Assembly: GCA_026986775.1 (NCBI GenBank)
Contig: JALSNX010000030.1
Coordinates: 143,483-207,482 of the forward strand
Direction: 5' to 3'
Length of the DNA: 64,000 nt
Source of the DNA: Caldifarciminota bacterium
GTDB taxonomy: Bacteria > Hydrothermota > Hydrothermia > UBA1063 > CAJXJZ01
The position numbers and the translations under genes were made by a program. Positions 49,396 to 56,634 of the stretch are shown in pieces. The notes beneath the pieces were generated by a model. It was given only the letters and a program-made list of their open reading frames with translations. It made no database searches and was not told the origin of the DNA. Position 1 is the stretch's first letter; every line of letters begins with the position of its first letter.

Positions 49396-52300
49396 TTATG
49401 ATTCTTTTTCTTTCTTAATTTCAAATTTTCCATCTTTCGCATCAACAATGATTGTATCTCCTTCTTTCACCTCACCCTTTAAGATAAGGCTGGAGAGTTC
49501 ATTTTCAATGGCCCTTTGTATGAGTCGCTTAAGGGGTCTTGCTCCCATAGTAGGGTCAAACCCTTCTCGTGCAAGAAGTTCTTTTGCCTGTGGCGTAAGT
49601 TTTATATCCAGTTTCTGGTCTTTTAGACGTAGGCGTAAGTGTTCAATCAATATGTCAACAATCTTTATTATATGATCCCATTTAAGTGGATGGAATACCA
49701 CAATTTCGTCTATTCTGTTGATAAATTCAGGCCTGAACGTGTGTTTTACCACATCAAGCACCTTTTCCCGTGCTCTTGTAAATTCTTCATCAAATTCCCT
49801 TTCTAACTTTTCCCTTTCCTTTATAAGATTGTCTTTTTCCTTGTTGTATACATCTTCAGATATTTCGCCTTTACGTTTTCTTTCATCCAGTTCTCTAAAC
49901 TTCTTGTTAAGTACTTCGTATCTGGGGTTGAATCTCTCCATAAGGTCTCTTAAGTATTCGCTTCCAAGGTTGCTTGTCATGATAATTACCGTATTTCTGA
50001 ACGAGACCGTTCTTCCCTGAGAGTCTGTAAGCCTGCCATCATCAAGCACCTGTAGAAACAGGTCAAATACTCTTGGATGTGCCTTTTCAACCTCATCAAG
50101 AAGTATGACAGAGTAAGGTTTTCTCCTCACCGCCTCAGTGAGTTTTCCGCCCTCCTCATATCCAACATAACCTGGAGGTGCTCCAATGAGCTTTGCCACA
50201 GAGTGTTGTTCTTTGAATTCAGACATGTCAAGTCTTATGAGCGCATCTTCATCACCAAAGAGAAACTTCGCAAGGGTTTTGGCAAGTTCTGTTTTTCCAA
50301 CCCCCGTGGGTCCCAAAAAGAGGAAAGAACCAAGCGGTCTTCTTGGGTCAGTGACTCCCGCACGTGCCCTTCTTATTGCCTCGGATACAGCCTTTATGGC
50401 GTCATCCTGTCCAACAACGCGTTTGTGAAGATGGTCTTCCATTTTCAAAAGCCTCTGTTTTTCTTCCTCAAGCATCTTGGATACGGGTATGCCGGTTGTA
50501 CGGGAAATAATTTCTGCTATATCTTCTCTTGTCACAACAGGCCGGTTTTTAGGTTCTTTCTTCCTGTTTTTTAGCATAAGAAGTTCCTTTTTGGATTTTT
50601 TGAGTTCTTCTTCTTTCTTTTCCCACTCCTCAATCTTTGCTTCTTCCTCAAGTTTCTTTACCTCTTCTTCAAGTGCCTTTATTTTATCTTCAAGTTCAGC
50701 AATCTTTGATGAGACATCTTCTTTGCCTTCACTCATAGACTTTATAGCCTTTCTTGCACAGGCCTGGTCAAGAACATCAATGGCCTTGTCCGGTAAATAT
50801 CGTCCCTGTATGTATTTATGTGACAGTTTCACCGCAGATTCAATTGCTTCGTCAGATATTTTTACGTTGTGATGCTCCTCATATTTAGGTCTTAACCCTT
50901 TAAGAATTTCAATGGTCATTTCTGGTGTGGGTTCTTCAACCCAGATAGGCTGAAATCTGCGTTCAAGTGCGGAATCTTTTTCTATATACTTTCTATATTC
51001 ATCTTCGGTGGTGGCACCTATTACCTGAAAATCGCCTCTTGCAAGAGCAGGTTTGAACATATTGGCTGCATCCATTGACCCTTCAGCCCTACCTGCACCC
51101 ACAACATTGTGCAATTCATCAATAAACAAAATGACGTCTTTTGCCTCTTTTACACCATCAAGAATACCCTTGAGACGCTCCTCAAAGTCACCTCTGTAAC
51201 GTGTGCCTGCAACAAGTGAACCCATATCCAGTTGCAGAATTCTTTTGTTTTTGAGTTTTTCAGGCACTTCACCTTTTACTATCTTCTGAGTAAGTCCCTC
51301 CACTATGGCAGTTTTTCCAACACCTGCCTTGCCCACTAAAACGGGATTATTTTTCTGCCTTCTTGAGAGAACCTCTATGGTCTGTTCTATTTCTTTTTCC
51401 CTTCCTATGACAGGGTCAAGTTTATTTTCCTTAGCAAGTTGTGTAAGGTCAATGGTAAACTTCTCCAGTGGAGATTTTTCTTCCTCTTTCAATTCTTCTT
51501 TTAAATTTCTCATATCGTTCCTCCCGTGTTTTTCTATACTCTTTAAAAGTTCGGATAAATAAAGACCACCAATGGCCTGGGGTACGCCGAGCATGGAGTC
51601 TATCAACCCCGTAAGCGTTACTTCTTTGTCCGCTTGTGATGCCTTATTAAGAATAAGTGTGGTGAAATAGGAGTACCTGTTTTCAGTGGGTTCACCAAGC
51701 AGTTTGTATCTCATTTTTGCCACAATTCTCCTCGGGTCAACGCCGTTATCACGAATATTCAAAAGAGTATTTCTGAGTCTTTCCTCAATATCAAGGACAC
51801 TGGAGAGAATCTTGTTCTCACTATCTCTGTCAAGCGAGGATGTAACCTTTTTAAGTTCATTAACAAATGTTCTTGGTACGCGGATTATCTGCTCTCTCAT
51901 GACCCATTGAGTGCGTGGTTCTTCAAAACTCCACATATCACCAAAAAATTCTCTGATAAAGTCCTCCATTGTTGTGCTTCTCTGTCGTGATGGCACCCAT
52001 CTCTTCACGTGAACCTCGGCAAAGTCCCTTATCCTTTTTCCCTCAAGATAGTCTCCGATATACGCATCAAGATGGTCAAGGAGTGCTCTTATAACTTCCC
52101 GTCTTTTGCTTTCACCAAACTCACCTGCGATTTCAAATGTTGCCTCCTTCAATGCACTGGTATAGGATTCTGTTAGTGTATCCAGTTGATTATCCAGATG
52201 GGAAAGAGCCTTTTCAATTTCTCTGTGTGCTGCCTCTGGATTTATACCCTTTTTTGCAAGCAATTTGTAAAATGCGTTGTCTTCTTTTACTAAAAACAAC

Positions 52301-52407
52301 GCGTTAAGAATGTGGTCTGTATCTATATAAAAATCCTTTTTTTCCTCTGCAAGACTCTTTGCAGTATCAAGGACTTTCTTTGCCTGTTTGTTCAATTTCA
52401 TACCCAC
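49396..52407 (-). CDS. clpB: ClpB-like AAA+ disaggregase with enlarged N-domain and an extra coiled coil in the second ATPase domain
   Basis: The 1003-residue protein has two AAA+ modules. The first (about residues 340-560) has Walker [15 protein letters not shown] and Walker [10 protein letters not shown]; the second (about 680-990) has [15 protein letters not shown] and [12 protein letters not shown]. The N-terminal region before the first module is about 330 residues, longer than usual. The middle coiled coil (about 575-635) is short, as in ClpC/ClpE. In the second module, between TSNLGSEYL and [10 protein letters not shown], there is an insert of about 55 residues forming a charged coiled coil. 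ClpC-type proteins have their ClpP-binding loop here; no IGF/LGF-like tripeptide is visible, so a ClpP-independent role is likely. The ATG follows GGAGGTGGGT. It is divergent from the KaiC-like operon. Confidence 0.9.
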
Positions 52408-52432: not shown

Positions 52433-52461
52433 TATATAGCAATGTTTTTGCGAATTGTCAA
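52433..52461 (-). promoter_or_regulatory. clpB promoter
   Basis: On the minus strand a perfect TTGACA (52456-52461), a 17-bp spacer and TATATA (52433-52438). The start would be near 52426, about 19 bases before the clpB ATG. Confidence 0.75.
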
Positions 52462-52474
52462 GCCTTGACAATTC
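52452..52474. promoter_or_regulatory. Palindrome joining the two divergent -35 boxes (candidate operator)
   Basis: GAATTGTCAAG and CTTGACAATTC are perfect 11-base arms around a single C. Each arm contains the -35 TTGACA of one of the two divergent promoters. It is not CIRCE (TTAGCACTC) or HAIR (CTTGAGT), so a different regulator is implied, if there is one. Confidence 0.7.
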
Positions 52475-52493
52475 AAAGTAAAATGATTAAATA
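52465..52493 (+). promoter_or_regulatory. Promoter of the KaiC-like/DUF505 operon
   Basis: A perfect TTGACA (52465-52470), a 17-bp spacer and TAAATA (52488-52493). The start would be near 52500, just ahead of AGGAGG and the ATG at 52520. Confidence 0.65.
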
Positions 52494-52519: not shown

Positions 52520-53371
52520 ATGGCAAAAGATGGTGTATTCCTTCTTGCTGATATAAAAGACAGGATAGTGGAACTTAAAGGTGTACCATCAGGTATTGAA
52601 GGACTTGATAATATATTTTTTACATTTAAAAAAGATGGCGATAAATTCAAAAAAGTAGGTCTTGGTGGAATACCGGAGTATGCAGTGATTAATCTGACCG
52701 GTGTGCCTGATACGGGTAAATCTCTTTTAGTGGAGCAGTTTGCAGTAAAGAGGGCTTCTCTGAATGAAAAAGTGGCTTTTATAACAGTTGAAACCCCGGC
52801 ACCGTTTTTAAGCACAGGGCTTTATATGAGGGCAAAAGCCATGGGCATTGATGAGAAAAAAATAGAAAACAACATAGTTATAATTGATGCTGCTTCCAAT
52901 AAAGACCTGAGGGAAGAACTTCCCACACTTTTAGATACACTTGCATATGTTATCAGAATCTATAAAACGAAATATACGGTTATAGATTCTGTCACAGGTA
53001 TTTACGAACATAAAGAGGTTATGGCAAGAATCTTTGTGAGGCAAATATATAATTTTCTTAAGAAATGGTATCAGACAGCCCTTTTAGTATCCCAGAAGCG
53101 TTCTTCACATGAGGAACTTTCTGCTGAGGCGGCGGGTGGTTATGCTGTTTCGCATATAGTGGATTGCACCATGGTGTTTTCCAAGAAAATGATACAGAGT
53201 ATCTATGATGAAAGGCTTTATAAAAAGCCCATAGGTGAACTTGTAAGACTTTTCAGAATTGATGGTTGCAGAATGTGCGGGCACGATACGGATACCCATA
53301 TCCTTACAATAGGTGAGGATGGTCTCGTCAGAATAGGTCCCTCCCTTAAATCGGTCTCAGAAAATAGATAA
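52520..53371 (+). CDS. Single-domain KaiC/RecA-like ATPase
   Basis: The 283-residue protein has a RecA/KaiC fold: the entry motif PSGIEGLDNIFF, Walker A LTGVPDTGKSLLVEQFA near residue 61, VAFITVETPA, Walker B YTVIDSVTGIYE near 155 and VSQKRSSHEE. A C-terminal appendix CRMCGHDTDTHILTIGEDG has two cysteines and a His. It has one KaiC unit rather than the two of the cyanobacterial clock protein, as in archaeal KaiC-like families. It is the first gene of a compact operon whose second product is the typical HTH partner of such ATPases. A sensory or regulatory ATPase role is inferred. Confidence 0.8.
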   Translation: MAKDGVFLLADIKDRIVELKGVPSGIEGLDNIFFTFKKDGDKFKKVGLGGIPEYAVINLTGVPDTGKSLLVEQFAVKRASLNEKVAFITVETPAPFLSTGLYMRAKAMGIDEKKIENNIVIIDAASNKDLREELPTLLDTLAYVIRIYKTKYTVIDSVTGIYEHKEVMARIFVRQIYNFLKKWYQTALLVSQKRSSHEELSAEAAGGYAVSHIVDCTMVFSKKMIQSIYDERLYKKPIGELVRLFRIDGCRMCGHDTDTHILTIGEDGLVRIGPSLKSVSENR

Positions 53372-53386: not shown

Positions 53387-54010
53387 ATGGTGGTTATAGG
53401 TAAAGATGAAATCAAAAAATTTGACCTTGATGGACTTGCTATAAGGGTTTTCCTGAAGGCCCTTGAGATACTCGGTGGCCCGAGAAAACTCATTGAACTC
53501 AGGAATCTCACATGGATTACGAGTTTAATGGAGGCATCTTATGCTGTAGTGATGTGGGAAGAACTCAAGAAAACAGAGGACGAAATTGCCGGATTTTTAG
53601 GGCTTACCCGACAGACTGTCAGGAATATTTTAAGAGCAGACCCTGAACTTGTTATGCAGAAAATAGAGGGAGAGCTGAAGGATAAAAGCACAAAGGCCCA
53701 TACAGCAGGTGGTCTTGCAAAATATGCGCTTTCAGAGATAAGGGCGGGAAGAGATAATCTTTCTGTGTTTATGACAGCCTTTGAGCAGGCTTTCACTGAC
53801 CTGGGTGTGGAGTGGCCTGTTCATATTTTGAGAAGGTTAAAAGGCACAGATTTTCCTGTGTCAAAAGAGGATTTGTCTTTAAAACTGAATGGCCTTAAAA
53901 TACTTGGGACTGACATAGAAGAAATACTTTCAGGAATTGATGCAGGTATTTTTGAAAGTCCACGGGATGTTTTAAGAATGATCAGCAAAACCATAAAAAA
54001 GGAGGCTTGA
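53387..54010 (+). CDS. HTH-containing partner protein of the KaiC-like ATPase
   Basis: The 207-residue protein contains a helix-turn-helix segment, EDEIAGFLGLTRQTVRNILRADPE (about residues 64-87), preceded by a conserved-looking helical part and followed by helical regions. From memory it resembles the probable regulatory domain that occurs regularly beside KaiC-like proteins in archaea (the near_KaiC model). Gene adjacency (15 bases after the ATPase, AAGGAGG before the ATG) supports a paired function. It may bind DNA or act as a protein adaptor. Predicted to be cytoplasmic. Confidence 0.65.
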   Translation: MVVIGKDEIKKFDLDGLAIRVFLKALEILGGPRKLIELRNLTWITSLMEASYAVVMWEELKKTEDEIAGFLGLTRQTVRNILRADPELVMQKIEGELKDKSTKAHTAGGLAKYALSEIRAGRDNLSVFMTAFEQAFTDLGVEWPVHILRRLKGTDFPVSKEDLSLKLNGLKILGTDIEEILSGIDAGIFESPRDVLRMISKTIKKEA

Positions 54011-54013
54011 TAA

Positions 54014-55783
54014 ATGATTATAAAAAAACAACATGCAACGTTGCTTTTAAGATTGCAGGATAAATGGAAGGAGGGAGTTGGACTTGACAAGATTGTTGAT
54101 AAACTCTCAGATGAAGAACTTGAGTATCTTGAGCATCTGTTTCTATCTGGACTTATTGATGAGGACGAAGACGAGTTTATATTGACCTATTCAGGGGACC
54201 TTATTTTAGACGTTCTCAGCAAACTTGTTGACGAGGGAAAATTACCACATCCTGAAAAGTGGGATGATTCTTTCAGATGGATTGGCTCTGAAGTTATCGC
54301 CATGATTGAAGTTGGCTTAAGAAGTGGAGGCGAAATAGAGGATAACATTAAAAGTGCACTTCGGGAAAGAGGGCTTGTGTCGGATGACGGAGTTCTCTCT
54401 CCATATGCTTCATCTATATGGGAGGCCTATCAGGAGGCAGATGTTAAACCGAGGATTTCCAATAAACTCGGAGAGTTTATAAAGAATACGCCACCAGGTC
54501 CTGGTCTTGTTAAATATTTACCAAAAGGCGCCAATGAATTACTTAGACTTGAATCAATGAGACTTATTGCGTTTTCTGTGCCAAGGAGTGATGTTTACTC
54601 TCTTACGGGACTTGGTCAGCAGATAAGAGCAGCTTTAATAAATGGAACGCCTTTTGGAGATGTATATGTAAACGAAGAAATGCTTGATGCCATTATGGAA
54701 CTTGATAAAAAAACAGTAAGTCGAAATGATGCACTTTTAGAAAAAATGCAGTCACTGGGTTATATAGATGCATCGTTGAGTCTTTTGCCAGCGGGAAAGC
54801 ATCTTCTTTCTGCGGCGAGAATATACTTTGACGGTCCCATTACAACAAATCCATCAATACACCTTTCTTTTGAAGAGTTTTATACCATGATAACCATAGA
54901 AAAACTCAAAAGCGATGTTAATTTTCCTCCTGTTTTAGAAAACATAGAGACGAAAGTGAAAGAGGAGTACAAAAATTACGATATTTACGAAGGCATATAC
55001 ACGCTTCTTTCGTATAAGTTGATAAAGGTTGCCAGAGATGAAAAGGGTAATTTACTCTATCATCTTACATCAAAGGGCAGGGAACTTTTGAACATATCAG
55101 GCCAGAAGTCACAGGAAATAGATGCACTTGCCGTTAAAGCCATAACTCTTACGAGAATGGAATACAGTGCACCGGATTTAAGATGGCTTGAACTGGCAGA
55201 AAAGGAAGGTCTTGTGGGGAAGGGCTTTCCTACTAAAAAAGGCAGATTTTTCGCAGAACTTGCGTCAAGAACAATCAAGTATCCATACATAACAGGAAAA
55301 ATGAGGGACATTCTCCACCTTATTCCCTATGAAAAGGGAATAAGCCTTAAAAGATTAATAGAACTTTCCGGAAAGGACGAAAAAGAAGTCCTTTATCTCC
55401 TTGAACGGCTTGATTCTCAGGGCATAGTGGATGCACTTCCTGATAACATCTTCACTCTCACAGAAATAGGAAGATTTATTAAAAGAGCTGTGAGGGTTGT
55501 ACCTGATGGAACAAAACACGTGCTCACTCCGCATCTTGCAAAGATAATGCTTGCTCTGTGGGAATTATCCGATAATGAAAGATACATACCTGTGTCCGAG
55601 AATTTAAAGAAGGTGGAAAAGATGCTTGACCTTCCCCATGACATTATAGAAAAAGAAATACTGTTAGGTAAAAGAAACAGATTTCTGAATGACAGAAAGA
55701 TACTTGAGCCCGGTAAGGTTCTTCTTGATGCCCTGCAACTTTATGAAAACATCAGAGACATCTGGGAGGAGGTTCTGGTATAA
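54014..55783 (+). CDS. DUF505-like protein with repeated winged-helix-type units
   Basis: The 589-residue protein begins IIKKQHATLLLRLQDKW and resembles DUF505, a family I remember from archaea and thermophilic bacteria next to KaiC-like genes. It appears to be built of repeated units in which a helical part ends in a short hairpin resembling a winged helix. Several phrases recur: FILTYSGDLILDVL, LLYHLTSKGRELL, IFTLTEIGRFI. There are no membrane spans or catalytic motifs. Its start lies three bases after the HTH gene stop (GGAGG upstream), and its stop overlaps the protease start. Likely a multi-site DNA- or protein-binding scaffold; function unknown. Confidence 0.65.
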   Translation: MIIKKQHATLLLRLQDKWKEGVGLDKIVDKLSDEELEYLEHLFLSGLIDEDEDEFILTYSGDLILDVLSKLVDEGKLPHPEKWDDSFRWIGSEVIAMIEVGLRSGGEIEDNIKSALRERGLVSDDGVLSPYASSIWEAYQEADVKPRISNKLGEFIKNTPPGPGLVKYLPKGANELLRLESMRLIAFSVPRSDVYSLTGLGQQIRAALINGTPFGDVYVNEEMLDAIMELDKKTVSRNDALLEKMQSLGYIDASLSLLPAGKHLLSAARIYFDGPITTNPSIHLSFEEFYTMITIEKLKSDVNFPPVLENIETKVKEEYKNYDIYEGIYTLLSYKLIKVARDEKGNLLYHLTSKGRELLNISGQKSQEIDALAVKAITLTRMEYSAPDLRWLELAEKEGLVGKGFPTKKGRFFAELASRTIKYPYITGKMRDILHLIPYEKGISLKRLIELSGKDEKEVLYLLERLDSQGIVDALPDNIFTLTEIGRFIKRAVRVVPDGTKHVLTPHLAKIMLALWELSDNERYIPVSENLKKVEKMLDLPHDIIEKEILLGKRNRFLNDRKILEPGKVLLDALQLYENIRDIWEEVLV

Positions 55784-56634
55784 TGGCATTTGATCCTGTT
55801 TCGCTTGTTTTCTGGTTCTTTATTCTGTTTGCAATACTCTGGCCCCAGTTGCAGCATAAAATGCTTCTGGGGCAGAGACTTGCTACCATTAAAAAGATAG
55901 AGAAAAAGAGGGACTCACGCGTTATTACACTTATACACAGACAGGAAAAGATAGGGATGTTTGGAATTCCATTTTTCAGGTTCATTGATATTGAGGATTC
56001 TGAGGAGGTACTGAGAGCAATAAGGACAACACCCGACAATGTTCCAATAGATATTATTTTACATACTCCGGGGGGACTCGTGCTTGCATCGTATCAAATA
56101 GCTCTTGCGCTTAAGGAACATCCCGCTAAAACCACAGTTATTGTTCCCCATTATGCCATGAGCGGTGGAACGCTGATAGCCCTTGCAGCAGACGAAATCA
56201 TAATGGACAAACATGCCGTGCTCGGTCCGGTTGACCCTCAACTTGCAGAGGGACAGGGAAGCGCAGTGCCAGCAGCATCCATATTGAAGACGGTGGAGTT
56301 AAAGGGTGAAAAAGAAGTAGATGATGCTACTTTGATAAGGGCTGATATGGCAAGAAAGGCCATAGCGCAGGTTGAAGAAATGGTGTATAACCTTTTGAAA
56401 GGAAAGATGGAAGAGGAAAAGGCAAAGGAACTTGCAAAAACATTAAGTGAAGGTAGATGGACTCATGATTATCCAATAACTTATGAACATGCACTTAAAC
56501 TCGGGTTGAATGTTAAAACAGAAGTGCCACAGGAGGTCTATGAACTTATGTCCATGTACCCTCAGATGCAACAGTTAAGGCCCGGAGTGGAGTTTATTCC
56601 TTATCCTTCGGGACATTCCAATGGAAAAAAGTAA
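55783..56634 (+). CDS. Membrane-anchored ClpP/crotonase-fold serine protease (SDH proteinase family)
   Basis: The 283-residue protein starts with a membrane span (PVSLVFWFFILFAILWP). A protease domain follows with IDIILHTPGGLVLASYQIA (oxyanion region), the nucleophile Ser in PHYAMSGGTLIALAADEI, and VLGPVDPQL. This matches the serine dehydrogenase proteinase family (SppA/ClpP-like fold). The domain should face the cytoplasm or lie close to the membrane. It overlaps the DUF505 stop by one base and the next gene by 14, so it is part of the same unit and probably works with the KaiC-like module. Confidence 0.83.
   Translation: MAFDPVSLVFWFFILFAILWPQLQHKMLLGQRLATIKKIEKKRDSRVITLIHRQEKIGMFGIPFFRFIDIEDSEEVLRAIRTTPDNVPIDIILHTPGGLVLASYQIALALKEHPAKTTVIVPHYAMSGGTLIALAADEIIMDKHAVLGPVDPQLAEGQGSAVPAASILKTVELKGEKEVDDATLIRADMARKAIAQVEEMVYNLLKGKMEEEKAKELAKTLSEGRWTHDYPITYEHALKLGLNVKTEVPQEVYELMSMYPQMQQLRPGVEFIPYPSGHSNGKK

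Follow-up and report, generated by a model that had tools for sequence, protein, structure and literature searches.

The perfect palindrome that separates clpB from a KaiC-like operon in an uncultured bacterium is probably the junction of two divergent promoters that would belong to one putative heat-shock promoter class, (C)TTGACA-(A/G)TTC, 13 bp, TAWWTA. Each arm would be the -35 region of one promoter, and clpB and the KaiC-like operon would be regulated together through the class they share, with no need for a dimer on the palindrome. We studied the palindrome in a window of 64,000 nucleotides, the whole stretch of DNA analysed, together with the genome that contains it (G000) and its relatives.

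A palindrome between two divergent promoters

Direct reading of the window confirmed the positions and letters of an arrangement described in a first-pass annotation: two divergent TTGACA-N17 promoters whose -35 boxes both lie inside a perfect palindrome with 11-base arms and a one-base centre, GAATTGTCAAG-C-CTTGACAATTC. TTGACA-N17-TATATA faces clpB, which begins with an ATG at 52401 behind the ribosome-binding site AAGGAGG, and TTGACA-N17-TAAATA faces the KaiC-like operon (kai), with its ATG at 52520. Both -10 boxes end in A, whereas the usual -10 of this genome ends in T (TAWWAT). An Rfam search of the window returned tRNA only. The features are as follows.

49396–52401, minus strand: clpB-like Hsp100 of 1001 aa; NCBIfam ClpB at 954 bits, under the curated cut-off of 1232; single Clp_N repeat
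52433–52438, minus strand: predicted clpB promoter -10, TATATA; N17 spacing; TAWWTA class
52452–52474, no strand: palindrome, read as two extended -35 regions back to back (arm GAATTGTCAAG, 52452–52462; centre C, 52463; arm CTTGACAATTC, 52464–52474)
52456–52461, minus strand: predicted clpB promoter -35, TTGACA, with ATTC next; the same TTGACA-NTTC occurs in the grpE and hsp20 promoters
52465–52470, plus strand: predicted KaiC-like operon promoter -35, TTGACA, with ATTC next
52488–52493, plus strand: predicted KaiC-like operon promoter -10, TAAATA; N17 spacing; TAWWTA class
52520–53371, plus strand: KaiC-domain ATPase, TIGR03878 (425.7 bits, cut-off 232)
53387–54010, plus strand: near_KaiC 'probable regulatory domain' protein, matching TIGR03879
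54014–55783, plus strand: DUF505 protein, matching PF04458 and also a winged-helix model
55783–56634, plus strand: ClpP-like SDH-type serine proteinase, matching PF01972

Within the ClpB-like protein, about 200 aa before AAA1 have no Pfam match, and the second AAA domain carries an apparent charged insertion.

RNA polymerase covers a promoter from about -55 to +20. The predicted starts of the two promoters would lie ~73 bp apart and the predicted footprints overlap by ~37 bp over the palindrome, so that simultaneous occupancy is unlikely; the earlier suggestion that two polymerases could not easily bind together thus probably holds, as mutual exclusion. Warman, Grainger and colleagues described bidirectional promoters that this arrangement resembles in that sequence symmetry leads to divergent transcription and possibly to polymerase competition, which has been documented for highly active symmetric E. 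coli promoters with a shared -10 (PMC12825309). Those promoters use a common -10, and the distance between their starts is commonly 10, 18 or 23 bp (PMC12825309), whereas in G000 it is the -35 boxes that abut, the predicted -10 boxes stand 49 bp apart and face outward, and the starts are correspondingly distant.

A putative promoter class at chaperone genes

The form TTGACA-N17-TAWWTA occurs at 11 places in G000 (control pattern, 2), and the housekeeping form TTGACA-N17-TAWAAT at 54 perfect places. Among the 11 are the starts of groES-groEL, grpE-dnaK (dnaK follows grpE), hsp20, clpB and the KaiC-like operon; the remainder are four non-chaperone matches, at a lipoprotein, a peroxiredoxin, an rRNA-like leader and a short ORF, and two apparently coding sites. 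The longer pattern TTGACA-NTTC-N13-TAWWTA is fully matched at clpB, kai, grpE-dnaK and hsp20, while groES fits TTGACA-N17-TAWWTA with TTCC after TTGACA. That the same promoter form fronts groES-groEL, grpE-dnaK and hsp20 argues, at the level of sequence, for the heat-shock link that had been proposed for the palindrome. When chaperone operons are compared with other TTGACA-N17 promoters for TAWWTA against TAWAAT, a Fisher test gives p = 1e-4, or 1e-3 without clpB, in a post hoc comparison that is to be read descriptively.

The stricter pattern TTGACANWTC-N13-TAWWTA was found at 27 places across 41 genomes, as against 1 for the control; we judged 9 of the 27 to lie in coding frames (6 in dnaG) and 18 outside genes. 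Twelve of these 18 stand before grpE (five genomes: G000, G001, G002, G003 and G008), hsp20 (five genomes: G000, G001, G003, G008 and G037) or clpB (two), and 2 of the 18 before kai; the others precede the lipoprotein (two) and small unknown genes (two). The groES promoter of G000 and the clpB/kai pair of G008 were found without this pattern. Across 16 aligned class promoters, the -10 is TAWWTA in 15 and TAATAA in one. Because the promoter itself was the query, selection partly shapes the columns for the -35 and the -10 in this alignment. Spacer position 14, a column fixed by no search, is T in 14 of the 16 and G in ~60% of housekeeping promoters, and TTC follows the -35 almost without exception. 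G003 has a second hsp20 paralogue whose promoter falls outside the class (TTGCGA / TATTAT).

A perfect class match also lies inside dnaG, upstream of rpoD (G000:C11:12142, L219), and dnaG-internal matches are present in G001, G003, G004, G006 and G008 (L239, L247, L234, L235 and L233). They recall the internal heat-shock promoter reported in the dnaG-rpoD region of E. coli. We set all six aside, since they coincide with a conserved coding motif, LDSS..PKYI, and are likely a coincidence of codons.

Conservation of the divergent pair

The divergent clpB/kai pair is also found in G003 (WOR-3 bacterium, JALVYB01; same genus) and G008 (Candidatus Hydrothermota, QNDO01; same order, another family), the nearest named relatives. 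The first-pass annotation had expected the palindrome to accompany the gene pair in close relatives, and it is kept in both: the region reads GAATTGTCAA-GGG-TTGACAATTC in G003 and GAATTGTCAAG-CC-CTTGATAATTC in G008, where the centre measures 2 bp instead of one and a mismatch interrupts one arm. Promoters with 17-bp spacing are retained in all six cases (both directions in G000, G003 and G008), and the gap between the two -35 boxes is 3 bp, but 4 bp in G008. Toward clpB, the -10 is TATATA in G003 and TAATAA in G008; toward kai, the -35 TTGACA is conserved in G003 and reads TTGATA in G008, with -10 boxes of TAAATA and TATTTA, respectively.

In G005–G007, where clpB and kai are not neighbours, a single half of the palindrome is left, CTTTACAATTC, and clpB has TTTACAATTC with TATAAT at N16; the KaiC-like operon itself is found in many relatives without the palindrome. 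In the G013 genome (C130, L206:603-6101), a TIGR03879-like gene and clpB form one operon in which the former runs 4 bp into the start of clpB, and kai lies convergent nearby; a third family thus shows an independent association of these genes, in another arrangement.

Weighing the explanations

The symmetry of the arms is close to what two class members would produce on meeting at their -35 ends. Single class promoters mostly carry the same TTGACA(A/G)TTC, and on the basis of the single groES, grpE and hsp20 promoters two such -35 regions would agree at every one of the five flanking positions with a chance of 0.22, compared with 0.011 by the housekeeping logo and 0.0013 by background. None of these single promoters has the second arm or is palindromic. 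The arms would thus mirror each other because each is the -35 region of one chaperone-type promoter. The arms also contain some sequence that is common to promoters in general: of 24 G000 housekeeping promoters, 62% have C just before TTGACA and 67% have C as the fourth spacer base (93% in G003). These frequencies, with ATTC as the most frequent first four spacer bases in G000 and first spacer bases often conserved between G000 and G003, would also suit two ordinary sigma-A promoters whose arms reflect a general -35 consensus (C-TTGACA-NWWC) and have no heat-shock content. Housekeeping promoters, however, show a sharp peak of TAWWAT at 17 bp, and this account leaves unexplained the TAWWTA boxes, which are rare genome-wide and concentrated at chaperone genes, and allows the symmetry a chance of only ~1%; we rejected the consensus alone as an explanation and regard such a pair of ordinary promoters as improbable. 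We would give equally little credence to a regulator of single CTTGACARTTC sites that overlaps the -35 of every chaperone promoter and finds a double site in the divergent pair. The near invariance of TTC in the class is what such a protein would predict, but TTC comes together with the TAWWTA -10, the fixed 17-bp spacing and the T at position 14, a combination that points to sigma recognition, and no candidate protein was identified.

The first-pass annotation had read the palindrome as a possible new heat-shock operator for a dimeric regulator that would control both promoters at once. On such a reading the dimer would repress clpB and the KaiC-like operon together, and the TIGR03879 or the DUF505 protein of the operon could be a candidate for it. 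Arms that are identical over 11 bases, their conservation with the gene pair across two families, and the presence in the operon of a 'probable regulatory domain' protein and of a protein with a winged-helix match all speak for such an operator. Further copies, however, did not come to light: with up to three mismatches, there is one match in the window (shuffles: mean 0.00) and one in the whole 2.18 Mb genome, the exact-arm pattern occurs in G000 and G003 only across 60 relatives, and the palindrome was found before no other chaperone gene in the genome, the relatives or genome_contigs. The 11 stretches retrieved from genome_contigs include the relatives G003 and G008, the others being chance-like and several of them in coding frames, and elsewhere among 84,980 species genomes copies are chance-like only. 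We therefore rejected a chaperone-wide palindromic operator. At other chaperone promoters TTGACA(A/G)TTC is present in one copy, with a TAWWTA -10 at a distance of 17 bp, so that the arm behaves as promoter sequence, and the altered centre and arm of G008, which keeps both N17 promoters all the same, the single half in G005–G007 and the many KaiC-like operons that lack the palindrome also count against a dimer. A dimeric operator is unlikely, and the operator claim is left unsupported. On an Anaeroplasmataceae contig (L065:3042-3063), one near copy, GAATTGTCAATATTGACAATTC, lies a short distance upstream of a gene that encodes a MarR-like protein.

A candidate sigma factor and known heat-shock systems

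If the palindrome is the junction of two promoters of one chaperone class, the clpB and kai promoters would be active and heat-induced, and an alternative sigma factor may read the -10 variant. Besides RpoD, G000 has genes for a second sigma factor and for a short protein of the sigma-70 family. The second sigma (G000:C18:61243; 280 aa) matches the RpoS, RpoD and RpoH models, all under their cut-offs. In region 2.4 of E. coli sigma-70, T440 and R441 are close to the -10 contact; the second sigma carries L and N at these two positions, whereas the RpoD of G000 keeps T and R. We therefore infer that the second sigma is a candidate reader of TAWWTA.

The element described here differs from several known heat-shock systems. 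HrcA (PF01628) has no match in G000, which is 98.4% complete, while 7 of 14 control genomes matched, and CIRCE (TTAGCACTC-N9-GAGTGCTAA), sought at chaperone genes, matched once, with 3 mismatches, which is as often as the control did. As with HrcA/CIRCE, chaperone promoters would be controlled together and an inverted repeat lies near a promoter, but the shared element in G000 is a non-palindromic promoter sequence. HAIR, the HspR operator, is CTTGAGT-N7-ACTCAAG. It too is a palindrome built from CTTGA/TCAAG-type words, but on direct reading the halves in G000 point the opposite way around a 1-bp centre, and both orientation and spacing depart from HAIR. The motif is thus distinct from both CIRCE and HAIR, as had been noted earlier. 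The CtsR operator is a direct heptad repeat, whereas the element in G000 is an inverted repeat. As with RpoH/sigma-32, a chaperone regulon (groE, dnaK, clpB, small Hsp) would be defined by its own promoter class, but the -10 of E. coli sigma-32 is CCCCATNT, which TAWWTA does not resemble, and the second sigma of G000 scores under both the RpoH and the RpoS cut-offs.

Other promoters and repeats in the genome

A separate promoter family in G000 has a run of 8–12 C between -35 and -10 (TTGACAAAACAT-Cn-TATAAT), followed in several cases by a CACC..GGTG dyad. Its members lie outside the window, at G000:C1:40949, 48307 and 201270, at C4:103899, 168243, 174711, 187811 and 191969, and at C10:14772 (stretches L175, L176, L184, L200, L203 and L204), with another at G003:C4:11881. 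Because the length of the C run varies between copies, they look like phase-variable promoters. Genes nearby include a radical SAM/SPASM peptide-maturase-like protein, ABC exporters and a C25 peptidase. In addition, a cassette of ~7.8 kb occurs twice in direct orientation, ~17.3 kb apart (G000:C4:172348-180119 and 189606-197377; L203 and L204); it encodes a radical SAM/SPASM protein, a 678-aa protein, an ABC transporter and others, with equal ORF lengths and starts.

Implications

More broadly, and only tentatively, we can imagine that WOR-3/Candidatus Hydrothermota bacteria without detectable HrcA/CIRCE run their heat shock response through a dedicated alternative sigma factor with a specificity not described before, TTGACARTTC-N13-TAWWTA. 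Such a regulon might include the KaiC-like ATPase operon with its ClpP-like protease; the promoters of this operon and of clpB would be fused back to back, and polymerase would be allocated to one or the other exclusively.

For the analysis of regulatory DNA, the case carries a lesson of method: what looks like an operator, a perfect palindrome, can instead consist of two promoter elements. For this uncultured lineage, with neither HrcA nor CIRCE found in genome G000, the promoter class offers a testable heat-shock signature. It would also place the operon of KaiC-like, near_KaiC, DUF505 and ClpP-like protease genes in the chaperone regulon, which gives a concrete lead to its function.
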